A stretch of DNA of 64,000 bases from Aestuariirhabdus litorea (GTDB lineage Bacteria > Pseudomonadota > Gammaproteobacteria > Pseudomonadales > Aestuariirhabdaceae), in NCBI RefSeq assembly GCF_003864255.1, contig NZ_QWEZ01000001.1:1240001-1304000 (forward strand), given 5' to 3'. Shown one piece after another: positions 13,354 through 47,062 of the stretch (position 1 is its first letter; every line of letters starts with the position of its first letter). Both the position numbers and the translations under genes were made by a program. The notes beneath the pieces were generated by a model. That model made no database searches, was not told the origin of the DNA, and saw nothing but the letters and a program-made list of their open reading frames with translations.

Positions 13354-14166
13354 TTACTGGGCCCAGCTGGGTGGGCGCTTCTGAATAAAAGCCAGGGTAC
13401 CCTCGCCACCCTCATCGCTGCGTACCGCTGCAGCAAATTGCTGGGCCGCATAATCAAGCAGGGCTTCGTGTTCCATGGTTTCGGTTGCCAGCAAAAGTGA
13501 CTTGGTGGTGGCATTGGCCTCGGGGGCACAGCGTTTGACCTGCGCCAGCACGGCAGCAAGCTGCTCGTCGAGGGCGTCGGCTGAGCTGTGGTAGTGCACC
13601 AGTCCCAGGTGTAAGGCCTCCTCGGCACCAAAGCGGGATCCCAATAGCATCAGGCGCCTCGCTTCGGTCAGGCCGATGCGCTTGACTACGAAGGGGGCGA
13701 TCTGTGCGGGAGGAATACCGAGACCGGTCTCGGGCAGTCCAAACTGCACCCCCTCAACCGCAATCGCTACATCGGAGACACAGGCCAGGCCGAAGCCGCC
13801 GCCAAGCACGGCCCCCTCGAGCACGGCGACCACCACCTGGGGCAAGCGGTTGGCGCGGGTGATCATGCGCCCAAAGGCCCGGTTCAGCTCGAAGAAAGGG
13901 TCAGTATCGGCACCGGCGGGGGTAGCCCGGGCGCTGGCCATATCCTTGATGTCGCCGCCGGCGCAGAAGTTGCCATCGCTGCCGCGGATCACCAGTGCCC
14001 GCACATCCCTGCGGGGTTCGATCCGCTCAAACAGGGCGAGCAGCTCCTCGACCATCTTGAGACTCATGGCGTTGCGGGCGGAGGGGCGTTGCAGCCAAAG
14101 GTGAAGGTTGCCGGCCTCCAGCTCGCAGCGCAGGGTGTCGAAAGTGGGTAGCTCCAGGGGTTGCAT
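13354..14166 (-). CDS. atuE: Isohexenylglutaconyl-CoA hydratase
   Basis: A 270-residue enoyl-CoA hydratase/isomerase (crotonase) protein. ATG at 14166, just after the atuD stop, is preferred to the 14211 ATG that overlaps atuD. The crotonase fold is shown by the oxyanion-hole motifs 'GNFCAGGDIKDM' and 'LEGAVLGGGFGLACVSDVAI', followed by 'FGLPETGLGIPP'. In the Atu pathway it hydrates 3-isohexenylglutaconyl-CoA to the 3-hydroxy-glutaryl form, which a lyase then splits to acetate and 7-methyl-3-oxo-6-octenoyl-CoA. Placement between the dehydrogenase and the carboxylase alpha subunit matches the Pseudomonas atuDEF order. Confidence 0.88.
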   Translation of the reverse strand: MQPLELPTFDTLRCELEAGNLHLWLQRPSARNAMSLKMVEELLALFERIEPRRDVRALVIRGSDGNFCAGGDIKDMASARATPAGADTDPFFELNRAFGRMITRANRLPQVVVAVLEGAVLGGGFGLACVSDVAIAVEGVQFGLPETGLGIPPAQIAPFVVKRIGLTEARRLMLLGSRFGAEEALHLGLVHYHSSADALDEQLAAVLAQVKRCAPEANATTKSLLLATETMEHEALLDYAAQQFAAAVRSDEGGEGTLAFIQKRPPSWAQ

Positions 14167-14168
14167 AC

Positions 14169-15329
14169 TCAGGATCTCTTCTTGCCGGGAAGGATGTTCA
14201 TGTATTTGCAAATGATGCCAAGCATGATCTCATCGGCCCCACCACCGATGGAGGCCAGGCGGGAGTCGCGGTAGGAGCGGGAAGCGACGTTGTCCCACAT
14301 AAAGCCCATGCCGCCCCAATACTGCAGGCAGGAGTCCGATACCTCGCGAGCCAGCCGCCCCCCCTTCAGCTTGGCCATAGAGGCCAGGTTGGTTACATCC
14401 TGCCCCCCCATGTAGGTTTCGCAGGCCTGATAGACAAGGGCACGCAGAGCTTCTATCTCGGTTTGCAGTTCCGCCATGCGGAAGTGGATCACCTGATTAT
14501 CGATCAGCGGCTGGCCGAAGGTGTGGCGCTCGCGGCAATAGGCGATGGTCTCGTTGATCACTCGCTCCATCGATTTGAGGGAGTTGGCTGCTCCCCATAG
14601 CCGCTCCTCCTGGAACTGGATCATCTGCATCATAAAGCCGGCCCCCTCGGCGCCGATTCGGTAGCGTTGGGGGACGCGCACGTTGTCAAAGAAGACCTGT
14701 GCAGTATCGGAAGAGCGCATTCCCAGCTTCTTGAGGGGCTCGGAGAAACTGATCCCTGGCGTATTGGCCGGAACCACGATCAGGGACTTGTTGACGTGGG
14801 GCTTATCATCACTGGTGTTGGCCAGCAGACAGAAGAAGTCGGCCTGGGTGGAGCTGGTGATCCACATTTTTGATCCGTTAATGAGGTAGTCATCCCCATC
14901 CTTGCGGGCTCTGGTTTTCATGCCGGCTACGTCGGAACCGGCACCGGTTTCGGAGACTGCGATACTGGCGACCAGGTCACCGGCAATGGCCGGCGCGAGA
15001 AACTCCTGTTGCAGGGCTTTGTCGGCAAAGCGGGCCAGTGCCGGTGTGGCCATATTGGTCTGTACGCCAATCGCCAGCGGCACCCCTCCACAGTGGGCAA
15101 CCCCCAGCTCCTCGGCCGCCACCAGCTCGTAGGAGTAATCCAGGCCCATACCGCCGGCACTCTCAGGCTTGGATATCCCCAGCAGGCCCAGGTTACCCAT
15201 CTTTTTGAACAGCTCGTGGGCTGGAAAAATACCCGCTTCCTCCCACTCATCGACGTAGGGGTTGACCTCGGTCTCTATAAAGTTGCGAGTGGTACGGCGG
15301 ATCTCTGCGTGTTCCTGGGTAAATTTCAT
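14169..15329 (-). CDS. atuD: Citronellyl-CoA dehydrogenase
   Basis: A 386-residue acyl-CoA dehydrogenase with the complete family length. 'MKFTQEHAEIRRTTRNFIE' at the N-terminus, 'AVSETGAGSDVAGMKTRA' (FAD/substrate loop) and 'WITSST' in the beta domain are followed by the helical C-domain with 'LQYWGGMGFM' near the catalytic region. It oxidises citronellyl-CoA to geranyl-CoA, passing electrons to ETF. Substrate choice is inferred from its place between atuC and atuE; isovaleryl-CoA-type enzymes look similar. The ribosome site AGAGAG precedes the ATG. Confidence 0.88.
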   Translation of the reverse strand: MKFTQEHAEIRRTTRNFIETEVNPYVDEWEEAGIFPAHELFKKMGNLGLLGISKPESAGGMGLDYSYELVAAEELGVAHCGGVPLAIGVQTNMATPALARFADKALQQEFLAPAIAGDLVASIAVSETGAGSDVAGMKTRARKDGDDYLINGSKMWITSSTQADFFCLLANTSDDKPHVNKSLIVVPANTPGISFSEPLKKLGMRSSDTAQVFFDNVRVPQRYRIGAEGAGFMMQMIQFQEERLWGAANSLKSMERVINETIAYCRERHTFGQPLIDNQVIHFRMAELQTEIEALRALVYQACETYMGGQDVTNLASMAKLKGGRLAREVSDSCLQYWGGMGFMWDNVASRSYRDSRLASIGGGADEIMLGIICKYMNILPGKKRS

Positions 15330-15361
15330 GACGGTCTCTCTTTATAAAATGGATAGGTAAG

Positions 15362-16978
15362 CTAGAAGCGGGCAACGCCAAAGCTGTTGGGGTGCAGTGT
15401 CCTGCGGTGGGACTCGTCGCAGGTTTCGAGCAGAAAGCCTAGCAGTCGCCGTGTATCCCGTGGATCGATCAGTCCGTCGTCCCATAAACGTGCCGTCCCG
15501 AACAGGGCGGTGGAGCTGGCGTCCAATTTCTGGGCCGTTACCTGCTCAATCATATCGAGCATCTCGGGGGCCGCCTCCTTGCCCAGCTTGGCGTGTTTCT
15601 GTTCGGTCACAATACGCAGTACCTTGCCGGCCTGTGCACCACCCATGACGGCGGTGCGGCTATTGGGCCAGGCAAAAATAAAGCGCGGATCGAGCCCGCG
15701 TCCACACATGGCGTAGTTGCCGGCACCGTAGGATCCCCCAACCACGATGGTAATCTTGGGGGTACGCGCGTTGGCCACGGCCTGGATCATTTTCGAACCG
15801 TGCTTGATGATACCGTTGCGCTCCGATTCGGTTCCCACCATAAAACCGGTGGTGTTGTGAAAAAACAGGATCGGCGTCTGGCTCTGGTCGCAGAGCTGGA
15901 TAAACTGTGCCGCCTTGTTGGCACCCTGAGCGGTAATGGGCGCGTTATTACCAATGATGCCGCAGGAAAACCCATGGATCTTGAGGTGACCACAGACCGT
16001 CTGGTTGTCGAACAACGGCTTGAAGTCGACAAATTCCGAGCCATCAGCGATGCGGGCAATGATCTCACGCACGTCATAGGGCTGTTTGGCCTCGGCGGGC
16101 ACCACTCCCAGTAGTTCAGATGTGGGGTAGAGGGGTTCCGGGTAGTGGGCCTGTGGGCGAGGGCGCAGCTGCTCATTCCAGGGCAGCTGCTGCAGCAGCT
16201 CGCGGGCGATACGCAGGGCGTCGGCATCATCCTCGCCCAGGTACTCTGCGGTGCCGGCAATTTCGGCATGCAACTCGGCCCCGCCGAGCTCCTCATCGGT
16301 AGCGATTTCACCGGTGGCCGCCTTGAGCAGGGGAGGACCGGCCAGGAACATCTTGGCCCGGTTGCGCACCACCACCACGTAATCGGAGAGGCCGGGCTGG
16401 TAGGCTCCGCCGGCGGTCGAGCTGCCGTGAACGATGGTGATTTGGGGAATACCTGCTGCCGAGAGCCTTGCCTGGTTGGCAAAGCCTCGCGCCCCTTCGA
16501 CAAAGATCTCTGCTGCGTAGTTCAGGTTGGCACCACCGCTTTCTGCCATGGTGACCACGGGCAGTTTGTTCTCCCTGGCAATCTCTTGCAGGCGCAAGGT
16601 TTTTTGCAGGCCGGAGGGGGAGATGGTCCCCCCTTTGATGGCGCTGTTATTTGCGATCAGGAGGCTACGAATGCCGGCGATGAACCCGATGCCAGCGATG
16701 ATCCCGCCACCGGCCAGGGAGCCATCCTTGTCGTCGTGCATATGGTAGCCCGCCAGGGTAGACAGCTCGAGAAAAGGAGAACCGGGGTCCAGCAGCCGTT
16801 GGATACGGTCGCGGGGCAGCAGCTGGCCTCGCAGCCGGAACTTCTCCCGCGCGGCTTCGGCGGTGTCGATCACTGTCTGTTCGGCGGCACGGAAGCCGTC
16901 GATAGCCGCCTGCATGACCCGACAGTTCTCAGCGAACTGCGTGGAGGCGGTATCTATATCGGACTGCAAAATGGCCAT
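15362..16978 (-). CDS. atuC: Geranyl-CoA carboxylase beta (carboxyltransferase) subunit
   Basis: A 538-residue carboxyltransferase with the two crotonase-like halves of the acetyl/propionyl/methylcrotonyl-CoA carboxylase beta family. The N-half has 'GGTISPSGLQKTLRLQEIA' and 'VHGSSTAGGAYQPGLSDYVV'; the C-half has 'FFHNTTGFMVGTESERNGII' and 'GGSYGAGNYAMCGRGLDPRF'. It transfers the carboxyl group from biotin on AtuF to geranyl-CoA. Separation from LiuB, the methylcrotonyl enzyme, rests on the atu context and has not been tested by phylogeny. It lies between atuB and atuD with short gaps of 19 and 32 bp. Confidence 0.88.
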   Translation of the reverse strand: MAILQSDIDTASTQFAENCRVMQAAIDGFRAAEQTVIDTAEAAREKFRLRGQLLPRDRIQRLLDPGSPFLELSTLAGYHMHDDKDGSLAGGGIIAGIGFIAGIRSLLIANNSAIKGGTISPSGLQKTLRLQEIARENKLPVVTMAESGGANLNYAAEIFVEGARGFANQARLSAAGIPQITIVHGSSTAGGAYQPGLSDYVVVVRNRAKMFLAGPPLLKAATGEIATDEELGGAELHAEIAGTAEYLGEDDADALRIARELLQQLPWNEQLRPRPQAHYPEPLYPTSELLGVVPAEAKQPYDVREIIARIADGSEFVDFKPLFDNQTVCGHLKIHGFSCGIIGNNAPITAQGANKAAQFIQLCDQSQTPILFFHNTTGFMVGTESERNGIIKHGSKMIQAVANARTPKITIVVGGSYGAGNYAMCGRGLDPRFIFAWPNSRTAVMGGAQAGKVLRIVTEQKHAKLGKEAAPEMLDMIEQVTAQKLDASSTALFGTARLWDDGLIDPRDTRRLLGFLLETCDESHRRTLHPNSFGVARF

Positions 16979-16997
16979 GGCGTTGTCCTGGCGAGGG

Positions 16998-17864
16998 TTA
17001 GTCTTCTTGCAACACCTTGGGTGTTACCGCTCGATGAAATCCGTTGTAACTATTGGAGTTTTTTGCCTTGGGCAGAGGCCAAACCCCTGAGCCCTGGGAA
17101 GCCGCCCCATCGACACGAATGGTATCGCCGCTGATGAAGCTGGCCCCTTCGCTCAGCAAAAAGCAGATCAGGGAGCTGACCTCGGCTTCGGTGGCCATCC
17201 GCTGCAGGGGAACCTGTTTAATCAGGGTGGGGATGACCGCCCGGAAGGGGCCCTCGTAGGTGTCCATGCCGCTGGAGGCGACCCAGCCAGGAGCTACCGC
17301 GTTGACCCGCACCCCCGAACACCCCCATTCGTACGCCGCCGTTTTTGTGAGGTTGTCCATACCGGCGCGGGCTGCGCCGGAGTGAGCCATGCCGGGCATG
17401 CCCCCCCAGTTGTCGGCGGTGATGTTGACAATGGCGCCGCCCGATTTAGACATTGACTGGTTGTAGACTTCGCGGGCAAAGAGAAAACCGCCGGTGAGGT
17501 TGGTGCGAACCACAGTCTCAAACCCTTTCTGGGTGATGGCCGCAAGGGGGGAGGGATATTGCCCCCCCGCATTATTGACCAGCCCATGGATCTGGCCGCA
17601 CTCATCGATGATCGATTTGACGGTGGCGACTACCCCATCCTCAATACGGATGTCACATACCCGGTAGGCGGCTATGCCTCCATCCTCAGCAATCTCCTGT
17701 TGAACCTTTTGCAGCTTCTCTTCGTTTCGGCCGATCAGGTAGACCCTGGCGCCGAGCGCGGTGAGCTCATGGGCGGTGCAGCGGCCGATTCCACTTCCAC
17801 CACCGGTTACGATGATGTTTTTACCGGAGAACAGCTGATCTTTGAAAACGGATTGGTAACTCAA
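16998..17864 (-). CDS. atuB: AtuB-like short-chain dehydrogenase/enoyl-CoA reductase (PECR-like)
   Basis: A 288-residue SDR starting with TTG at 17864, four bases overlapping the atuA stop (TTGA) and preceded by GGGGAG at seven bases. The NADP motif is '[16 protein letters not shown]' and the SDR motif '[12 protein letters not shown]' is present. The usual Tyr-x3-Lys is replaced by '[14 protein letters not shown]', the same pattern as in peroxisomal trans-2-enoyl-CoA reductase (PECR), so it probably reduces or isomerises an enoyl- or dienoyl-CoA rather than oxidising an alcohol. It follows atuA as in Pseudomonas. Confidence 0.82.
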
Positions 17865-19681
17865 GGTCTGTCTCCCCTTGTCAGTGTTAGTTCATTAGCC
17901 AGTGAGGCTGGTACGGGTATCTCAAGGTCCAGCAGTTGCTGCGCAAAAGCCTTGCCCTGGGGGTCGATACGCAAACTCGCGATACCGCCACCTCCCAGGC
18001 TGTTTTCCAGTAAAAAGTTGAGTGCATTGAGGCCAGGCCATTCCCAGCGCAGCACCCGGCTCGTGTCACTATCGAGTAGGTGTGCCATCAGTGTGTGGAT
18101 ACGCGACTCCGTTAAGGCCTCACGGATATAGGGCAGGTAAGCCGGGTCCCGCGCAATCACGCCGATGTTGCTGTGGTTGCCCTTGTCGCCACTGCGGGCC
18201 CAGGCCAGTGCGATCAAGGGTACGGACGCATCGCAGTTTGAGGAGGGGGGAGGGGGTGGCGATTCGCAAGAGGGCTCCGGGGGCTGGTAAGCAGTGCCAC
18301 TGGTCTCGATATCAACCATCACTACCTCATCGGCTATCTGGTAGCTGACCGGCACCCGCGACTTATCGATCAGGAAGGAGAACAGTTTGATCACCGGCTG
18401 AACATTGGGGCGCCCCCCCACCAGCCCGGTGAGCCCCGGCGCCATGCCGGTGGCCGCTTGGGCGATTTCACGGGAGAAGAGGATCAGGGCCTCCTTCTGG
18501 GGGTGGGCCACCGCTATTTTAAGTACCACTTCGCGGGTGTCCGTGCGCTTTGCGCGGGCACCGTAGGTCGCTTCGGTGCCCAGTAGCTCCACCGACCGGG
18601 CTGTAAACCCGCCCCGTTCGCCGGCTTCCAGTAGGGCCGTCACCTTGTTGAGAATGGCATCTGCGACCCGCGAGGCTTTTGCGGGGGCGTCGATGCCGCC
18701 AATCAGGCAGGTTGCGGTGCAGCGGTAGCCATCCATATAAGTGGCCGAAACCTTGTAGCTGTTGGTTGGCTGCCGCCCACGGGCGCCCTCGACAGCGACT
18801 CGGTCTGGTGCGGTCTGTTGCAACGAAATATGGCGGAAATCACATACCACATCGGGCAGGTAATAGCTGCCAGGGTCTCCGATTTCGTACACCACCTGCT
18901 CGGCCACGGTGGCGCAGTTAACCAGCCCCCCGGTGCCCTCGGGCTTGGTGACCACGAAGCTGGCGTCGGAACTCACCTCGACCACTGGGAATCCGATATT
19001 TTCGTAATTGGGTACAGTTTCCCAGTCGGTGAAGTTACCGCCGGTGCACTGGGCTCCGCACTCAATGATGTGTCCAGCCAGGCTGGCCTGTGCCAGCTTG
19101 TCGAAGTCCTGGTAGGACCAGCCAAACTCATGCACCAGGGCGCCCGTTACAACGGCACTGTCGACACCGCGACCACTGATCACTATATCTGCCCCCGCCG
19201 CGAGAGCCGAGCTGATGGCCGGCGCTCCCAGATAGGCATTGATGCTGACCAGTCCCCGGGGTAGCGGTGCGCCGGTGTACATCTCCTTTACCTCTTCGCT
19301 GGCCAGTTGAGTGGCTTGAGCGATCAGGTTGTCGCCGTTGATAACCGCCACTTTCAGCGCCAGGCCCTGCTTGGCAATCTCTGCCCGCAGCGCCTCTGCA
19401 CAACTGTGGGGATTGATTCCGCCGCTGTTGCTGATGACTCTAATCCCCTTGCGGCTTATCTCGCCCAGCAAGGGGGCGAGGGTGGAGATGAAGTCAGGAG
19501 CATACCCCATTTGCGGGTTTTTCAGGCGCGCGCCCGCCATGATCGACAGGGTGACCTCGGCCAGGTAGTCAAACACCAGGTAGTCGAGTTGAGCACCCTG
19601 GACGAGTTGGGCGGCCGCCGTAGAGGTATCGCCCCAGAATGCGGAGGCGCATCCGATGGTGATCTGTTTATTGTTTTGCAT
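17861..19681 (-). CDS. atuA: AtuA, acyclic terpene utilization protein (DUF1446)
   Basis: A 606-residue protein with the DUF1446/AtuA domain over about residues 5-450 ('[20 protein letters not shown]', '[18 protein letters not shown]', '[14 protein letters not shown]') and the AtuA C-terminal domain near 480-600 ('[18 protein letters not shown]'). In Pseudomonas the atu genes are needed for growth on citronellol and geraniol, but the exact reaction of AtuA is unknown. It is the first gene of a seven-gene minus-strand operon to atuG, with AAGG before the ATG. Its promoter overlaps an inverted repeat facing the divergent regulator atuR. Confidence 0.9.
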
Positions 19682-40237: not shown

Positions 40238-41128
40238 TTGACCTTGGAATCAAAGCCTACAATTGATCGAATGCAACGGGAGCGCCTGATGCGGTGGGCC
40301 TCGCTTGCCTCCGTAGCGACTGCGTTCAGCCTTATCCTTGCCAAGCTGGTCGCCTGGCTTTTCACCGGCAGTGTCAGTGTGCTGGCTTCCCTGGTGGACT
40401 CCATGCTCGATGCCATGGCCTCCCTGGTTAACCTGCTGGCGGTCCGCTACTCCCTTAAACCGGCCGATGAGGATCATCAATTTGGCCATGGCAAGGCCGA
40501 GTCGCTGGCGGCATTGGTTCAAACAGCTTTTATCTGCGGCTCTGCGATCTTCCTCATCTTCCACGCCATCGACGACCTGCGGAGCCGCAGCGAGATCGGC
40601 AATGAACAGGTTGGGGTCTGGGTTATCCTCTTCTCCATTGCCCTGACCGCTGCGCTGGTGCTTTTTCAAGGCTACGTTGTACGCCACACCGGCTCGGTCA
40701 CCATCAAGGCCGATGCGCTCCACTACCGCATGGACCTGCTCACCAACGCTTCGGTTCTGGCTGCTCTGGTGCTGTCCTGGCTCGGCTACAAATCGATGGA
40801 CGCCTGGGTGGCGATCGGTATTGCCCTTTATATGCTCTATGGCGTGCGCGAGATCGTCATGGAGAGCTTTGACCTGTTAATGGATCGGCAGTTGCCACCG
40901 GAACAGCTGGAGGAGATAGAAACTCTGGTGATGAGCGTCGGTGGGGTGCAGGGGTTTCATGAGTTGAGGACCCGTCGCAGTGGCACCATGCCGATCATTC
41001 AACTTGACCTGGAGATGGATGGATCAATGACGCTGGAGGAGGCTCACGATATTGCCGAGCGTGTGATGATCCTGATCAAGAAGCGCTTTCCGGGTGCCGA
41101 TGTGACGATCCATCAGGACCCGGTATAG
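40238..41128 (+). CDS. Cation diffusion facilitator (FieF-like) metal exporter
   Basis: A 296-residue membrane protein. TTG at 40238 follows GGAAG at four to five bases and is the best start; ATG at 40271 lacks a site. There are six helices, with metal ligands in 'LVDSMLDAMASLVN' (Asp-x3-Asp) and the typical 'DHQFGHGKAESLAAL'. The C-terminal cytosolic domain has 'RRSGTMPIIQLDLEMD', where metal binds in FieF/YiiP. It exports Fe(II), Zn(II) or similar ions. Its end overlaps the convergent AraC gene by 53 nt. Confidence 0.85.
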   Translation: MTLESKPTIDRMQRERLMRWASLASVATAFSLILAKLVAWLFTGSVSVLASLVDSMLDAMASLVNLLAVRYSLKPADEDHQFGHGKAESLAALVQTAFICGSAIFLIFHAIDDLRSRSEIGNEQVGVWVILFSIALTAALVLFQGYVVRHTGSVTIKADALHYRMDLLTNASVLAALVLSWLGYKSMDAWVAIGIALYMLYGVREIVMESFDLLMDRQLPPEQLEEIETLVMSVGGVQGFHELRTRRSGTMPIIQLDLEMDGSMTLEEAHDIAERVMILIKKRFPGADVTIHQDPV

Positions 41129-42140
41129 CGTTGCGGGCCCGGTACTCCCCTGGGGTGATGCCGAACCACTGCTTGAAGCTGCGGTGAAAGGAACGGGGCT
41201 CACTGAATCCCAGCCTGAGGGCGATACCGGTGATCGGCATTGCCGTCTCCAGCAGGAAGTGTTCGGCGCTTTCCTGTCGTAACCGATCGAGGATCTGCTG
41301 ATAGCTGGTGTTCTCCTGGCGTAACTTCCGCTGCATGGTCCTTGGCGTCATGGCCAGCTTGTCGGCGACCAGATCCTTGCGAGGAACCCCGTCGCGAATC
41401 TTCTGCTTGAGCGCGTAACGTACCCTAAGTGCCAGTGACTGTTCCGTATTCTGCTCGGTGATCAGCGCACGGGCATGCTCCTCCAGTGTCTGAAGCAGTT
41501 GCCGGTTCGATTGCCTGAGGGGCAACTTCAGGTAGTCGTTTTTAAGGAACAGGGCATTCATGGACTGGCCAAAGTAGACCGGACAGCCGAAGGCGGAGCG
41601 GTATTCATCCTTTACGGCGGGCTCGGGTTGCGGGCGCATCAGGCTGACCTTCAAGGGAGAACCTTCACCGTCGGTAATCCAGCGGCCGTAAGCCAGCCAC
41701 GAAGCGAGATGGTTGTCCACCATATGACTCACCACTTCGGGGTCATCGTAGTGGCAGCTCCAGTGCAGCACCGTGTGATCGTTATAGTATTCAATGCTTG
41801 AGGTGCCCATATCGCCAATCAGTTTTTCATAGGGCACGATGCGCTTCAGTGCGCTCCCCAGGGTGTCACAGTTCATGCTAATGTATCCCAGCACGCTGTA
41901 GGAACCTGGTTGCACGTGGCGGGCGCAGTGCAATCCAAACAGCGGATCCCGGGAGCGGGTAATCAGGGATTTAAGTAGTTGCTGAAACGCCTGGCCATCA
42001 ATCTGCTGGCTGCTGTCACCGAGCAATTGGGGGCTGATACCGAGGTTGGAGAGCAGGCTACTGGTGTCGATACGACGGAGCTCGGCCTCGCGCAAATACT
42101 GGTGAAGTGCGGCGATTGATGCCCTGCCAAGCCTGTCCAT
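41076..42140 (-). CDS. AraC-family regulator divergent from the AGPS-like operon
   Basis: A 354-residue OruR/ArgR-type regulator with an Arabinose_bd-like N-domain ('DPLFGLHCARHVQPGSYSVL') and a C-terminal double HTH: 'RKDLVADKLAMTPRTMQRKL' and 'MPITGIALRLGFSEPRSFHR', then 'SFKQWFGITPGEYR'. It lies 125 bp from the divergent AGPS-like gene and is the likely regulator of the three-gene module. Its last 53 bases overlap the metal exporter in antisense. Confidence 0.83.
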   Translation of the reverse strand: MDRLGRASIAALHQYLREAELRRIDTSSLLSNLGISPQLLGDSSQQIDGQAFQQLLKSLITRSRDPLFGLHCARHVQPGSYSVLGYISMNCDTLGSALKRIVPYEKLIGDMGTSSIEYYNDHTVLHWSCHYDDPEVVSHMVDNHLASWLAYGRWITDGEGSPLKVSLMRPQPEPAVKDEYRSAFGCPVYFGQSMNALFLKNDYLKLPLRQSNRQLLQTLEEHARALITEQNTEQSLALRVRYALKQKIRDGVPRKDLVADKLAMTPRTMQRKLRQENTSYQQILDRLRQESAEHFLLETAMPITGIALRLGFSEPRSFHRSFKQWFGITPGEYRARNAIPGPDGSSHRHPESAS

Positions 42141-42265
42141 TCAACCTCCGTTGTGTTGGCCAATTTGGAGAGATCGATGTCCCGATTCGCCACTGACCCT
42201 TAAAATTTCAGCAGACTAGTATAGGGCTGCACTGACAATAGTAAACCAACCCCGGGGAGACTGGA

Positions 42266-43888
42266 GTGGATAGCGCACGTCGATGGAATGGTTGGGGTCA
42301 CCCCGATACCGATTACCCCCTGCCTGCCGAGGCACTGCTCTTTTTACACCAAAAGCTGGGGGCGGCAACACCCCTGCCCGAGGTGGGTCTGGACGCGGTG
42401 GTGGAAACCGTTCCACCGAGCCGTGTTGAGGCTCACCCGCTGCTGGATACAGGCGCCGAGCCGCGTATTCGTCATGCCCGAGGGCAAAGCCTGCCCGACT
42501 GGTTGGCAATGAAGTCTGGCCTCTATGGCTGCTTTCCCGACGCCGTCGCCTTTCCCGAAAACCGGGACCAGTTGGTTGAGCTTCTGACCCTGGCCCGTGA
42601 AAAACGATACTGCCTCATCCCCTATGGGGGCGGCACCAGCGTTGCCGGGCATATCAATCCTCGCCAGCAGCCTATGCCGGTAATTACGGTGGATATGGGG
42701 CGCATGAACCGCCTTATAGCTATCGATAAAGAGAGCCAGATCGCCACCTTCGGCGCCGGGGTGGCCGGCCCCGCCCTGGAAGCGCAGCTGCGGGGGCAGG
42801 GCTACACCCTGGGTCATTACCCGCAGTCCTTCGAGCTTTCAACCCTGGGGGGGTGGGTCGCCAGCCGCTCCAGTGGCCAGCAGTCACTCCACTACGGGCG
42901 TATCGAGCAGCTGTTTGCAGGTGGCAAGCTGGAGACCTTTGACGGCTGCCTGGAGATCGCCCCCATTCCGGCCTCGGCCGCCGGCATCGATCTGCGGGAG
43001 CTGGTGATGGGGTCCGAGGGTCGCATCGGTATTCTGTCCGAAGTCGACCTGCGAATCAGTCCGCTGCCTGAAAAGGAGGCCTTTTACGTCGCCTTTCTGC
43101 CCAGCTGGGATCAGGGGGTCGCAGTGGTCCGGCGCGCCGCCCAGCAGCGCATCGGGCTGTCGATGTTGCGGCTCAGCAACCCGCTGGAGACCTATACCCA
43201 ACTGAGGTTGGCCGGTCATGCCAGCGCGATCGCTTTACTGGAGCGGTACCTTCGACTGCGGGGCAATCGGGTCGGCACGGGCGGAGCTGAGGGAGCCACC
43301 CTGCTTACCTTCGGGATCACCGGTAGCCGCTCACAACATGGGGCCACCCTGCGCCAGCTGAAAAAGCTGATCCGCCAGGGGAGGGGGGCCTATGTGGGCA
43401 CCCTGTTGGGCAAACGCTGGCAGCACGGCCGTTTTCGCTTTCCTTACCTTCGCGAGTCCCTCTGGCAACAGGGCTATATGGTCGACACGCTGGAGACCTG
43501 TACCCCCTGGAGCAACGTCACCCCGCTGATGCACGCCATAGAGACGTCTCTGCGGGAGGAGCTGGCGGATGAGCAGGAGGAGGTCCACGTCTTTTCCCAC
43601 CTATCCCATGTCTACCCCCAGGGGTCGAGCATCTACACGACCTATCTGTTCCGGGCGGCGCAGACTCCGGCAGCTACCCTCGAGCGCTGGCAGCGGCTGA
43701 AGCAGAAAGCGTCTAGAGTCGTGGTGGAGCAGGGCGGTACCATTAGCCACCAACACGGTGTGGGTAAGGATCATGCCCCCTACCTGCGCACCGAAAAAGG
43801 GGAGTATGGGGTACAGCGCATGGCACAGATCTGCGGACTGTTTGATGGCCAGCAGCAATTGAACCCCGGTACACTGCTCAATGACTAA
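42266..43888 (+). CDS. FAD-linked alkyldihydroxyacetonephosphate synthase-like enzyme
   Basis: A 540-residue flavoprotein starting with GTG at 42266 after GGGGAG. It belongs to the vanillyl-alcohol-oxidase FAD fold: 'PYGGGTSVAGHI' and 'GHYPQSFELSTLGGWVASRS' bind FAD, matching the Ser-Gly motif of AGPS. The C-terminal 'GTISHQHGVGKDHAPYL' corresponds to the His-rich catalytic loop of AGPS (HHH there, HQH here). AGPS swaps the acyl chain of acyl-DHAP for a fatty alcohol, forming an ether lipid precursor. The substrate is inferred; D-lactate or glycolate oxidase subfamilies fit less well. First gene of an operon with glpD-like and FGGY kinase genes. Confidence 0.72.
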   Translation: MDSARRWNGWGHPDTDYPLPAEALLFLHQKLGAATPLPEVGLDAVVETVPPSRVEAHPLLDTGAEPRIRHARGQSLPDWLAMKSGLYGCFPDAVAFPENRDQLVELLTLAREKRYCLIPYGGGTSVAGHINPRQQPMPVITVDMGRMNRLIAIDKESQIATFGAGVAGPALEAQLRGQGYTLGHYPQSFELSTLGGWVASRSSGQQSLHYGRIEQLFAGGKLETFDGCLEIAPIPASAAGIDLRELVMGSEGRIGILSEVDLRISPLPEKEAFYVAFLPSWDQGVAVVRRAAQQRIGLSMLRLSNPLETYTQLRLAGHASAIALLERYLRLRGNRVGTGGAEGATLLTFGITGSRSQHGATLRQLKKLIRQGRGAYVGTLLGKRWQHGRFRFPYLRESLWQQGYMVDTLETCTPWSNVTPLMHAIETSLREELADEQEEVHVFSHLSHVYPQGSSIYTTYLFRAAQTPAATLERWQRLKQKASRVVVEQGGTISHQHGVGKDHAPYLRTEKGEYGVQRMAQICGLFDGQQQLNPGTLLND

Positions 43889-43914
43889 CAACAACCGGCA
43901 CCAAAGGAGCGAGC

Positions 43915-45516
43915 ATGGACGCCGCCGCACAGCGTAAACAACTGATTGAACAGCTGCAGGGGACCGAGGAGTGGGACCTGGTGATTATCGGGGGGGGGAT
44001 CACCGGCGCGGGCATTTTGCTGCGAGCGGCCCAGCGGGGGCTGAAGGCGTTGCTGGTCGAGCAGCAGGATTTTGCCTGGGGTACCTCCAGTCGCTCGTCG
44101 AAAATGGTCCACGGCGGGTTGCGCTACCTGGTTAACGGTGACTTTGCACTGACCCGTGAGTCGGTTCGGGAAAGGGAGCTGCTGATCAAACAGCTACCTG
44201 GTCTGGTGGAGCCCATGAGCTACCTCTATGCCCACTACCGCTGGCGCTGGATCGAACGCCTTGGCCTGCACCTTATCCTCAAACTTTACGATCTCTTTGC
44301 CGGGCGCGTTACCCATAGCGGGCTCACGGCTGACCAGACCCGCACCCTGATGCCGGGGATTCGTGACACTGACCTGGTGGCCGGTACCCGCTTCGAAGAC
44401 GCGGTTACCGACGATGCTCGCCTGGTATTGCGTACCCTGGATGAAGCATGCCGGCTGGGGGCGGTGGCCATCAACTATGTGCAGGTCACCCAGCTGCTCC
44501 ACCGGGATGGTAAGGTATGCGGGGTGGAGATGACGGACCGACTCGAGGACCGCACCCTGGTGGTCGACGCCCGTTGTACCGTGAACGCTTGCGGGACCTG
44601 GGTGGATCGTCTGTGGGGAGAGTCCGGCGGCAAGGAGAACGGCAAACAGCACCGTATCCGCCCGCTACGGGGCAGCCACATTGTCATCCCGGGTGATCGC
44701 CTCCCCATTGGCACGGCCCTGGCTTTGCCGCACCCGGAGGATGGCCGCAATGTGTTTATCTTCCCCTGGGAGCAGACCACGGTTATCGGCACGACCGACC
44801 TCGATCATGACCAGCCGATGGAGCAGGAGCCGGTGATAACCCGGGCAGAGCTCGATTACCTGCTGGCGGCACTGCGCCACCAGTTCCCGGATCTAGCGCT
44901 CGAAGAAACGGAGATTCTATCCACCTGGTCGGGCGTGCGCCCGGTCATTAGTGAGAAGCCCGGATTATCCCCCTCTGATGAAAAGCGTGAGCATGAGATC
45001 TGGAGCGAGCCCGGGCTGGTCTCCGTGGGGGGCGGCAAGCTCACCACCTTCAGGGTGATCGCAGACCAGGTGCTGGAACGGATCGCGGCTCAAGGGCTGC
45101 TTCCTGCGCTCAAAAGCGACAGTGTTGCCATGTTCAAGCGAGAGCCAACCCCTCCGCTACCGACCGGGGTGGACAGCGGGTCCTGGTGCCGACTGCTCGG
45201 CCGTTATGGTGCCCGGCTGAGGGAGTGGTGGTCTCCCGACTGCGACCCTGGCCGCGTTGGTAACACGCCGACGCTGTGGTGTGAACTCGGCTGGGCGGCC
45301 AGGGCCCAGTCGGTGGTGCACCTGGATGACCTGTTGCTGAGGCGAACCCGCATCGGGGTTCAGCTGCCGCGTGGGGGCGAAGCATGGCTGCCACGCATCA
45401 AACAACTCTGCCAACCGGCGCTGGGGTGGAGTGATGAACAGTGGTCGGCGGAAGAGGCCCGCTACCTGGAGATTATCGACCGCTACTATTCGCTGCCCGA
45501 GGTTAAGGGTGGCTGA
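43915..45516 (+). CDS. GlpD-like FAD-dependent glycerol-3-phosphate dehydrogenase
   Basis: A 533-residue DAO-family flavoprotein. The dinucleotide motif is 'DLVIIGGGITGAGILLRAAQ', then 'WGTSSRSSKMVHGGLRYLV' and 'YVNACGTWVDRLW'-type strands; 'LVSVGGGKLTTFRVIADQ' is the conserved C-terminal FAD motif of GlpD. It oxidises glycerol 3-phosphate or a related derivative, feeding electrons to quinone at the membrane. It lies between the AGPS-like and FGGY kinase genes and overlaps the latter by eight bases, so it may be a dedicated paralogue rather than the main glpD. Confidence 0.8.
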   Translation: MDAAAQRKQLIEQLQGTEEWDLVIIGGGITGAGILLRAAQRGLKALLVEQQDFAWGTSSRSSKMVHGGLRYLVNGDFALTRESVRERELLIKQLPGLVEPMSYLYAHYRWRWIERLGLHLILKLYDLFAGRVTHSGLTADQTRTLMPGIRDTDLVAGTRFEDAVTDDARLVLRTLDEACRLGAVAINYVQVTQLLHRDGKVCGVEMTDRLEDRTLVVDARCTVNACGTWVDRLWGESGGKENGKQHRIRPLRGSHIVIPGDRLPIGTALALPHPEDGRNVFIFPWEQTTVIGTTDLDHDQPMEQEPVITRAELDYLLAALRHQFPDLALEETEILSTWSGVRPVISEKPGLSPSDEKREHEIWSEPGLVSVGGGKLTTFRVIADQVLERIAAQGLLPALKSDSVAMFKREPTPPLPTGVDSGSWCRLLGRYGARLREWWSPDCDPGRVGNTPTLWCELGWAARAQSVVHLDDLLLRRTRIGVQLPRGGEAWLPRIKQLCQPALGWSDEQWSAEEARYLEIIDRYYSLPEVKGG

Positions 45517-47062
45517 ATCGGGACTGATACTGGCCCTCGATAACGGCACCCAGAGCCTGCGTGCGCTGTTGTTTGACCTGCGTGGAGAGCTGGTCGCTAA
45601 AGCCAAGGTGGAGCTCGAGGCCTATTACTCCCATTCACCGGGCTGGGCCGAGCAGGACCCCGACTACTTTTGGAAACAGCTTGGGGAGGCTTGTCGACAG
45701 CTTTGGCAGTGCTCGGGGGTTAACCCCTCGCGAGTGGTGGCGGTCAGCCTCACCACCCAGCGGGGCACTGTGATCAACCTGGATAAACAGGGCGACCCGC
45801 TGCGGCCGGCAATCCTCTGGCTCGATCAACGCCGGGCCCGGGTATCGGCCCCCCTGCCGCAGCCCTGGCGCACCCTGTTCTGGTTGGCGGGCCAGCGTGA
45901 AAAAGCCAACTATTTTCGCTCTAAGGCGCAGGCCAACTGGATCGCCCAGCAGCAACCGGAGATCTACGCACATACCCACAAGGTGTTGTTGCTGTCCGGT
46001 TACCTGACCTATCGCCTGTGCGGCGAATACCGGGACTCGGTGGGGGCGATTGTGGGATACCTGCCGTTCGATTACCGCAAGCAGCAGTGGGCGGCGCCGA
46101 GTCACTGGGGATGGCCCTGTAGCGGAGTAAAACCGGGGCAGTTACCGGAGCTGGTCAAACCGGGTGAGCTGCTGGGCAAGATCACTTTGGAGGCCAGCGC
46201 GACAACCGGTATACCCGCCGGGTTACCGCTGATTGCCGCGGCCTCCGACAAAGCCTGTGAGGTATTGGGATCAGGTGGGCTCTCATCCGATGTGGGCTGC
46301 CTGAGCTTTGGCACCACCGCCACTATCAATATCAATAGCCAGCGTTACATTGAGCCACAACGCTTTATTCCGCCTTACGCGGCCGCCGTCCCCGATGCCT
46401 ACAATACGGAAGTGATGATCTATCGCGGTTTCTGGATGGTCAGCTGGTTCAAACAGCAATTTGGTCTGCGTGAATCCCAGCGTGCCCAAGATCTTGGGCT
46501 GAGCCCCGAAGCGCTGTTTGACGAGCTGGTCCGTGAAGTGCCCGCGGGCTCCATGGGTTTGATGTTGCAGCCCTATTGGTCACCGGGCCTCAACGATCGG
46601 GATATGAAGGGGGCTGTCATTGGCTTTGGTGATCTCCATACCCGCTCCCATCTCTATAGGGCCATTCTGGAAGGGCTGGTCTACGGGCTGCGGGAGGGTA
46701 AGGAGCAGATCGAAGCGCGCAGTGGGCAAAAGATCCAGCGCCTCTGTGTCTCGGGGGGGGGATCCCAAAGTGACGCTGCGCTGCAGATTACCGCGGATAT
46801 TTTTGGCCTGCCGGTGACACGCCCTCACACCTATGAAACCTCGGGGCTGGGGGCAGCCATTGATGCGGCTGTAGGGGTCGGGTTGTTTCAGGATTTCCCT
46901 GATGCGGTGGCCGCTATGACCCGCTCCAGTCGAGTGTTTACCCCGAACCCGGAGGCGCACCGGCTCTATGACCAGCTGTATCGACGGGTGTACCGGAAAA
47001 TGTACCGGCGTCTTAAACCTCTCTACCGGGAAATTCGGTCGATCACCGGCTACCCGGAATAG
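45509..47062 (+). CDS. FGGY-family carbohydrate kinase
   Basis: A 517-residue kinase starting with GTG at 45509, overlapping the GlpD-like stop. The N-terminal phosphate-binding motif is 'LALDNGTQSLRALLFDLRG'. The C-domain has 'GCLSFGTTATINI' and 'RLCVSGGGSQSDAALQITAD', typical of FGGY. It phosphorylates glycerol, a sugar or a sugar alcohol; sequence resembles the xylulokinase/glycerol-kinase branches but no substrate is proven. In this operon, phosphorylation of an alkylglycerol or glycerol-like compound fits best. It converges on the EAL-HDOD gene with a one-base gap. Confidence 0.82.
   Translation: MAESGLILALDNGTQSLRALLFDLRGELVAKAKVELEAYYSHSPGWAEQDPDYFWKQLGEACRQLWQCSGVNPSRVVAVSLTTQRGTVINLDKQGDPLRPAILWLDQRRARVSAPLPQPWRTLFWLAGQREKANYFRSKAQANWIAQQQPEIYAHTHKVLLLSGYLTYRLCGEYRDSVGAIVGYLPFDYRKQQWAAPSHWGWPCSGVKPGQLPELVKPGELLGKITLEASATTGIPAGLPLIAAASDKACEVLGSGGLSSDVGCLSFGTTATININSQRYIEPQRFIPPYAAAVPDAYNTEVMIYRGFWMVSWFKQQFGLRESQRAQDLGLSPEALFDELVREVPAGSMGLMLQPYWSPGLNDRDMKGAVIGFGDLHTRSHLYRAILEGLVYGLREGKEQIEARSGQKIQRLCVSGGGSQSDAALQITADIFGLPVTRPHTYETSGLGAAIDAAVGVGLFQDFPDAVAAMTRSSRVFTPNPEAHRLYDQLYRRVYRKMYRRLKPLYREIRSITGYPE

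Follow-up and report, generated by a model that had tools for sequence, protein, structure and literature searches.

A GliR-type regulator gene divergent from an operon for an AGPS-type flavoenzyme, a GlpD-type dehydrogenase and an FGGY kinase in Aestuariirhabdus litorea: a candidate module for O-alkylglycerol breakdown

The window analysed here, a stretch of 64,000 nucleotides from the genome of Aestuariirhabdus litorea (contig NZ_QWEZ01000001.1), exhibits at positions 41076-47062 a gene for an AraC-family regulator, transcribed divergently from three genes that share one strand in the list of open reading frames (ORFs). These three genes encode an alkyl-dihydroxyacetone-phosphate synthase (AGPS)-type flavoenzyme (hereafter F), a GlpD-type dehydrogenase (D) and an FGGY kinase (K), in this order (Table 1). 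F and D are separated by 26 bp (43889-43914). The longest ORF of K starts from a GTG at 45371; the in-frame GTG at 45509 produces an overlap of exactly 8 nt with D and matches the start of the family. The ORF coordinates thus bear out the operon geometry (26-bp gap, 8-nt overlap, divergent AraC gene) described in the first-pass annotation of this DNA. The locus is flanked by a cation-efflux gene and, next after K on the opposite strand, by an HDOD-EAL gene.

F is an AGPS-type flavoenzyme and not a glycolate/lactate oxidase. The best phmmer matches in the PDB are Dictyostelium ADPS (2uuu, E-value = 2.5e-67) and guinea-pig AGPS (4bby, 8.8e-61), the next family following at 1.8e-20. The AlphaFold model of F (pLDDT, or predicted local distance difference test, 86.8) matches AGPS over 513-518 residues within the model range 1-538 (fold Z score 41.2, root-mean-square deviation 2.0-2.1), whereas the match with the next family, D-lactate dehydrogenase, has a Z score of 32.0 and begins only at residue 52. 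Among the 50 fold-match entries listed, those covering the N-terminal region of the model are all AGPS entries. Twenty-four aligned F sequences, that of the window included, are all identical at the guinea-pig AGPS positions H300, T309, R419, R515, Y578, H615 and H617, numbered according to the phmmer alignment with F; His615 and His617 count among the catalytic residues of AGPS. The residues reported as important for catalysis in Dictyostelium ADPS, R352, R447 and Y508 (PMC3509576), correspond to R302, R396 and Y457 of F if the numbering of the PDB chain is taken to be shifted throughout by 3 residues. Neither of the two GlcD-like proteins that were aligned has the AGPS Tyr and Arg positions. 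In a phylogenetic tree F forms a single clade (100/100) inside the AGPS group, far from the GlcD-like proteins of the same genome, and a second tree recovers the same groups; the first tree, which joins long branches, does not settle how F, eukaryotic AGPS and a group of bacterial paralogues branch relative to one another. Against the NCBIfam GlcD model TIGR00387, F scores 120.9 bits (cut-off 567.9). The PDB E-values, the fold scores, the GlcD model score and the tree all lead us to reject F as a glycolate/lactate oxidase. The AGPS-like assignment of the first-pass annotation therefore holds in sequence match, fold and tree, and the grouping with lactate/glycolate oxidases that it had named as a refutation did not occur in either tree or fold.

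The genome of the window also encodes a second AGPS-like protein (30% identity to F) with an HHHAVG motif, the gene of which directly follows a putative GMP-synthase-like gene. PADLOC found no defence family for F, and plasmids were rejected as carriers, since 72,556 records gave 0 matches at 1e-100.

K possesses both the FGGY_N and the FGGY_C domain, in agreement with the first-pass assignment, and shares 24% identity with Escherichia coli GlpK. The glycerol kinase signature has been defined as R83, E84, Y135, D245 and F270, a group called remarkably unchanged (PMC3245297). K retains the GlpK residues Arg83, Trp103 and Asp245. Glu84 is found in none of 18 aligned K sequences (A, G, Y or S being present instead) and Tyr135 in none of six (F or L), and the position of Phe270 falls in a gap in all six. 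The genome of the window has a separate GlpK with all five signature residues. Because the signature is partly lost in K while an intact GlpK is encoded elsewhere in the genome, K probably does not phosphorylate free glycerol, and we reject its identification as an ordinary glycerol kinase.

D possesses the DAO and DAO_C domains and is 32% identical to the GlpD of E. coli. Ten positions of the latter, taken as substrate-site residues, were compared with seven aligned D sequences: at nine of them (50, 54, 55, 233, 317, 332, 354, 355 and 356) all seven agree with E. coli GlpD, and position 375 varies. The GlpD-type assignment made at first pass is thus upheld. D scores 262.5 bits against the NCBIfam GlpD model PRK12266, under its cut-off of 360. 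It is the only full-length GlpD homologue found in the genome of the window, next to three weaker partial matches. PA3025, its Pseudomonas aeruginosa counterpart, is among the respiration genes listed in a cis-2-decenoic acid microarray study (PMC4412052).

The arrangement of the three genes is conserved far beyond chance. Gene content was scored by tblastn in 36 loci fetched from one large gammaproteobacterial order, the window not being counted, and in 80 named loci, which are the best 80 of 585 matches and not a random sample. Where at least 3.6 kb is available downstream of F, both D and K follow in 31 of 33 order-level loci (neither in the other two) and in 64 of 70 named loci. A divergent regulator match is present in 18 of 35 order-level and 33 of 72 named loci having at least 1.3 kb upstream, "GliR-like" standing here for any match above 70 bits (27 to 73% identity). 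At the low end of this range, one regulator (L145) scores nearly alike against GliR (207.1 bits) and QhpR (198.9 bits). Of the 293 genomes of the order, 70 contain an F orthologue (at least 51% identity); at a threshold of 1e-60 a match is obtained in 72 genomes, two of which have only a paralogue of 32% identity. Relatives of F are also found in loci labelled as beta- and alphaproteobacteria, Chloroflexota and other phyla. K (at 1e-90) is present in 75 of the 293 genomes and accompanies F in 69, counts uncorrected for relatedness; the lone F genome without K is G032.

Of the six genomes having K without F, four carry another AGPS-type flavoenzyme (designated P') directly beside K, one has a contig that ends within F, and one has K alone. 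The gene order is D-P'-K in three of the four P' loci, and the contig of the fourth retains only the C-terminal part of D (Table 1). The P' ORFs (465-485 aa, with a HHHG.GR motif) constitute a third AGPS-type branch in the tree, with ADPS as the best PDB match (E-value = 6.2e-54; next family 8.2e-32). The catalytic Tyr, R419, H300 and the three His positions are kept in all four P' sequences, T309 is replaced by Ser in all four, and the residue at R515 is variable or misaligned. That the trio recurs with another AGPS-type enzyme supports the view that the three proteins serve one joint pathway.

The regulator has as its best NCBIfam model GliR (NF050186; E-value = 5.3e-138), scoring 460 bits, below the equivalog cut-off of 570. 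GliR is PA3027 of P. aeruginosa, which is reported in PMC8151288 to activate PA3026-PA3024, the phospholipase C gene PA3464 and PA3342. The locus of the window is a new member of the gliR-PA3026-PA3025-PA3024 locus type described there. An alignment of three congeneric loci reveals a 26-bp block, AAAATTTCAGCAGACTAGTATAGGGC (42202-42227), in the gliR-F intergenic region, identical in one of the two congeners and partly kept in the other. When up to 3 mismatches are allowed, the GliR motif A from the literature has one match in this region (42156-42170), for 288 matches in the window and 189 expected in shuffled sequences. The PA3026 protein is listed as lower on C18 than on C16 alkane in table 1 of PMC5491041, which points neither way.

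Neighbouring genes, of which a sample of 50 proteins was annotated, revealed no partner beyond F, D and K common to all lineages. A GntR/FadR-type gene adjoins or overlaps F in six loci labelled as Chloroflexota or Bacillota, as determined by clustering. Two of these genes were tested: both contain the FadR C-terminal domain and score above the cut-off of a first NCBIfam FadR model (214.6 and 221.6 bits; cut-off 189) and below that of a second, stricter one (206.7 and 216.9 bits; cut-off 249.2). Downstream of K, Pseudomonas chlororaphis has DUF1302 and DUF1329 genes (tested), as do other Pseudomonas loci according to the clustering; in a betaproteobacterial locus (L157), a GMC oxidoreductase gene (tested) occurs together with a DUF1302 gene (by clustering), and a homologue of this oxidoreductase is found by clustering in another locus (L163). 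The GMC-oxidoreductase and DUF1302/DUF1329 genes may help the cell to take up or oxidise a hydrophobic product. In SAR86 and related marine genomes, DUF3604 genes lie upstream of F-D-K (tested in L126 and L121, by clustering in L124 and L132), accompanied by a short-chain dehydrogenase gene and an epimerase-like gene (tested in L125, otherwise by clustering). In one Anaerolineales locus a TMEM164-family gene (PF14808, E-value = 3.7e-57) begins 145 bp after K. Human TMEM164 is an ether-phospholipid acyltransferase.

Table 1. Positions of the genes and regions discussed; window coordinates for the locus under study, and coordinates within each fetched locus elsewhere unless indicated
Feature	Location	Positions	Strand	Remarks
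GliR-type AraC-family regulator	window	41076-42140	-	Pfam Arabinose_bd 6.9e-43, HTH_18 2.1e-22; divergent from operon
gliR-F intergenic promoter region	window	42141-42265	.	125 bp
F, AGPS-type flavin adenine dinucleotide (FAD) enzyme, 540 aa	window	42266-43888	+	GTG start; FAD_binding_4 + FAD-oxidase_C; PA3026 counterpart
D, GlpD-type FAD-dependent dehydrogenase, 533 aa	window	43915-45516	+	DAO + DAO_C; PA3025 counterpart
K, FGGY kinase, 517 aa from GTG 45509	window	45509-47062	+	FGGY_N + FGGY_C; PA3024 counterpart
D-P'-K variant	L172	4358-8898		Crp-like regulator gene divergent
D-P'-K variant	L173	930-5493		Crp-like regulator gene divergent
D-P'-K variant	L174	4587-9218		
P'-K variant	L176	2-3477		only C-terminal part of D on contig
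GliR-like gene and lone D	L179	5096-9125		HDOD-EAL neighbour like that of the window
GliR-like gene and lone D	L180	5050-7967		without F and K
Second AGPS-like protein	window genome (C2)	~1385658-1387076		L010 1171-2985
DUF1302 and DUF1329 genes	L091 (P. chlororaphis)	14009-18856		downstream of K
GMC oxidoreductase and DUF1302 genes	L157 (betaproteobacterial)	13789-18213		downstream of K
GMC-oxidoreductase homologue	L163	13789-16061		downstream of K
TMEM164-family gene	L146 (Anaerolineales)	14179-14943		after K
DUF3604 gene(s)	L126	759-8973		upstream of F-D-K

We tentatively favour, at somewhat less than an even chance, the reading that these genes, under the control of GliR, serve as a module that degrades or remodels O-alkylglycerols (remnants of ether lipids), with K acting before D and D before F. 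Such a route fits the gene set because it needs a non-glycerol FGGY kinase, a C2 dehydrogenase and a C1-exchanging flavoenzyme. K would phosphorylate 1-O-alkyl-sn-glycerol at C3, and D, which would be quinone-linked in the manner of GlpD, would then oxidise the C2 hydroxyl of 1-O-alkylglycerol-3-phosphate to give alkyl-dihydroxyacetone phosphate (alkyl-DHAP), an oxidation that would acidify the C1 hydrogen. In the mechanism proposed for AGPS, the C1 hydrogen is abstracted, an adduct is formed at flavin N5, the acyl group is expelled and an alcohol is added, as outlined in PMC3509576. With alkyl-DHAP supplied by D, the same chemistry (Tyr base, covalent flavin-N5 adduct at C1) could run in F in the cleaving direction and expel the alkoxy chain: this chain would leave as fatty alcohol, to be replaced by water or a fatty acid, yielding DHAP or acyl-DHAP. 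The fatty alcohol would go to oxidation and DHAP to glycolysis. The phospholipase C gene reported in the P. aeruginosa GliR regulon (PMC8151288) fits a supply of glycerolipid remnants. The salvage path from kinase through dehydrogenase to AGPS-like enzyme, one of two readings offered at first pass, is favoured by the partial loss of the GlpK signature in K, by the tracking of AGPS-type flavoenzymes by K and by the FadR-type regulators at F; the path itself we still infer. A broader proposition, to which we give less credence, is that an oxygen-independent degradation of alkyl ether lipids, through phosphorylation, C2 oxidation and ether cleavage by an AGPS-type flavoenzyme, is widespread among bacteria and may have been assembled on two or more occasions from separate AGPS subfamilies (F-D-K and D-P'-K).

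Several observations weigh against the breakdown route. Chemically, an alkoxide is a poor leaving group, and to our knowledge AGPS is known only in the ether-forming direction. Some AGPS positions are changed in F: D303 is Gln and S527 is Thr in all 24 aligned sequences, and E471 is replaced by Thr in 23 of them and by Ser in the remaining one. His616 of guinea-pig AGPS is replaced by Gln in 21 of the 24 and retained in three, the window sequence reading HQH. The suggestion made at first pass that HQH may mark altered chemistry finds no support here and was rejected: HQH carries no weight because the aligned middle position is His in three F sequences and is thus not strictly kept. The gene set is not invariably intact either. 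K is missing beside F-D in five of the 70 named loci, and neither D nor K is found in one; F of G032 (L055) has neither D nor K beside it; G150 and G273 have F on one contig and D and K on another; and the contig with F in G292 also bears a copy of K, the listed D and a second K being on another. The 50 annotated neighbours include no lipase, fatty-alcohol dehydrogenase or transporter that is met repeatedly in different lineages. In P. aeruginosa, deleting the operon or gliR produced no phenotype under the conditions tried, and the text consulted does not name ether lipids among the tests (PMC8151288).

The distribution of D also counts against this route, in that D is not dedicated to it. A D orthologue (E < 1e-100) without F or K occurs in nine genomes, a tenth (G280) being the contig-end case. 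Of the seven lone-D loci fetched, two (L179 and L180) carry a divergent GliR-like gene next to D, and the GliR model confirms one of these. Retention of this GliR-like gene and of an HDOD-EAL neighbour like that of the window suggests that in L179 F and K were lost while D stayed. Furthermore, 24 of 69 genomes with both F and D, that of the window included, lack a second GlpD homologue at 1e-30 among at most five candidates scored per genome. The lone D and the lack of a second GlpD in these 24 genomes indicate that in some lineages D probably still oxidises plain glycerol-3-phosphate; the lone D is probably a plain GlpD, and D might also serve as the cell's ordinary glycerol-3-phosphate dehydrogenase.

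A main alternative is ether-lipid synthesis, the other reading offered at first pass, in which F would swap an acyl chain for a fatty alcohol in the normal AGPS reaction. K and D would make DHAP from glycerol in one variant, that drawn for P. aeruginosa; in the other, K would convert monoacylglycerol to lysophosphatidate and D would take this directly to acyl-DHAP, so that no DHAP acyltransferase would be needed. The forward direction is the known one for AGPS (PMC3509576), the Tyr, Arg and His positions are kept in F, and a scheme from glycerol to alkylglycerone phosphate has been drawn for the operon (PMC8151288). The TMEM164-family gene after K would also agree with synthesis, although it was observed in only one of the 80 named loci. 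The published scheme is weakened by K, which lacks the full GlpK signature and therefore probably does not act on free glycerol; DHAP is moreover already available from glycolysis, so that neither K nor D is needed to obtain it. GlpD-type enzymes oxidise towards quinone, which we count against synthesis, and the operon lacks the reductase that would be required next. No DHAP acyltransferase or dedicated acyl reductase recurs in the sample of 50 annotated neighbours, despite the epimerase- and short-chain dehydrogenase/reductase-type genes upstream in some marine loci. The plasmalogen desaturase family CarF/PEDS1 (PF10520) is above cut-off in only two of the 293 genomes, both without F, and thus in none of the 70 F genomes, nor in any of 14 control genomes; G032, an F genome, has a match below cut-off, with stops. 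This argues against plasmalogens and not against alkyl lipids. Altogether we consider synthesis unlikely.

A different substrate is another alternative, since the same logic of kinase, dehydrogenase and C1 cleavage would equally serve the catabolism of other O-substituted glycerols (aryl, glycosyl, short-chain ethers or glycerol esters). The pocket changes in K say only that its substrate is probably not plain glycerol, relatives of the genes occur in many phyla, and their neighbours vary by lineage. A lipid substrate is favoured instead by the FadR-type regulators beside F in some loci, by a match with AGPS extending over the N-terminal region, which is exclusive to AGPS among the fold entries listed, and by the phospholipase C of the P. 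aeruginosa GliR regulon (PMC8151288). We judge other glycerol derivatives a rather unlikely answer. It is more doubtful still, and in our estimate quite improbable, that F acts as a genuine oxidase or dehydrogenase on C1 of some glycerol-phosphate derivative, in an operon that branches off the metabolism of glycerol or glycerol-3-phosphate. F does have the fold of the vanillyl-alcohol oxidase superfamily, and D can stand alone and is the sole GlpD homologue detected in some genomes. Against this stand the AGPS Tyr and Arg, invariant in all 24 F sequences and missing from both GlcD-like proteins, the fully supported position of F within the AGPS group, and a non-GlpK kinase that is hard to place in plain glycerol use. 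The operon and the enzyme assignments are well supported; the function we infer with less confidence.

Soil and sea receive ether lipids from animals, protists and archaea, and bacterial genes for using these lipids would, if true, be new biochemistry. In the breakdown route, F would be a relative of the enzyme with which animals make ether lipids, here taking them apart. The operon is common within a single large order of gammaproteobacteria (70 of 293 genomes) and has relatives as far as Chloroflexota, so that knowing its function would improve the annotation of many genomes and help to settle what GliR senses and the role of PA3026-PA3024. The available open-licence literature yielded no assay of the F, D or K enzymes and no proposal of alkylglycerol breakdown, although absence from print is not thereby shown.

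Compared with known systems, F resembles AGPS/ADPS (EC 2.5.1.26) in whole-length fold, FAD domains, catalytic Tyr, two Arg and flanking His, and has the N-terminal WNGWG motif in common with guinea-pig AGPS; it differs in its low identity (about 29%) and in having a kinase and a GlpD-type dehydrogenase as operon partners. D is like GlpD in its DAO and DAO_C domains and in nine of the ten positions compared, and unlike it in a divergent C-terminal region, a score below the NCBIfam cut-off and its operon partnership with F and K. K shares with GlpK the FGGY domains, R83, W103 and D245, and has lost E84, Y135 and F270. Alkylglycerol monooxygenase (AGMO) would share its substrate class with the breakdown route proposed here. 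AGMO uses oxygen and is described as a tetrahydrobiopterin-dependent membrane enzyme, whereas F is a flavoenzyme that would need no oxygen. The closest known relative is the gliR-PA3026-PA3025-PA3024 locus, where a divergent AraC regulator is followed by a flavoenzyme, a GlpD homologue and an FGGY kinase in the same order; this likeness is drawn from gene order, protein families and the GliR model. The window differs in that its regulator falls below the GliR equivalog cut-off and that a YegS-like kinase gene (PA3023) does not come next, its place being taken by the HDOD-EAL gene on the other strand. The spread differs as well: clustered orthologues are given for 4 plus 8 of 1748 genomes in PMC8151288, and F was identified here in 70 of the 293 genomes of a single order.

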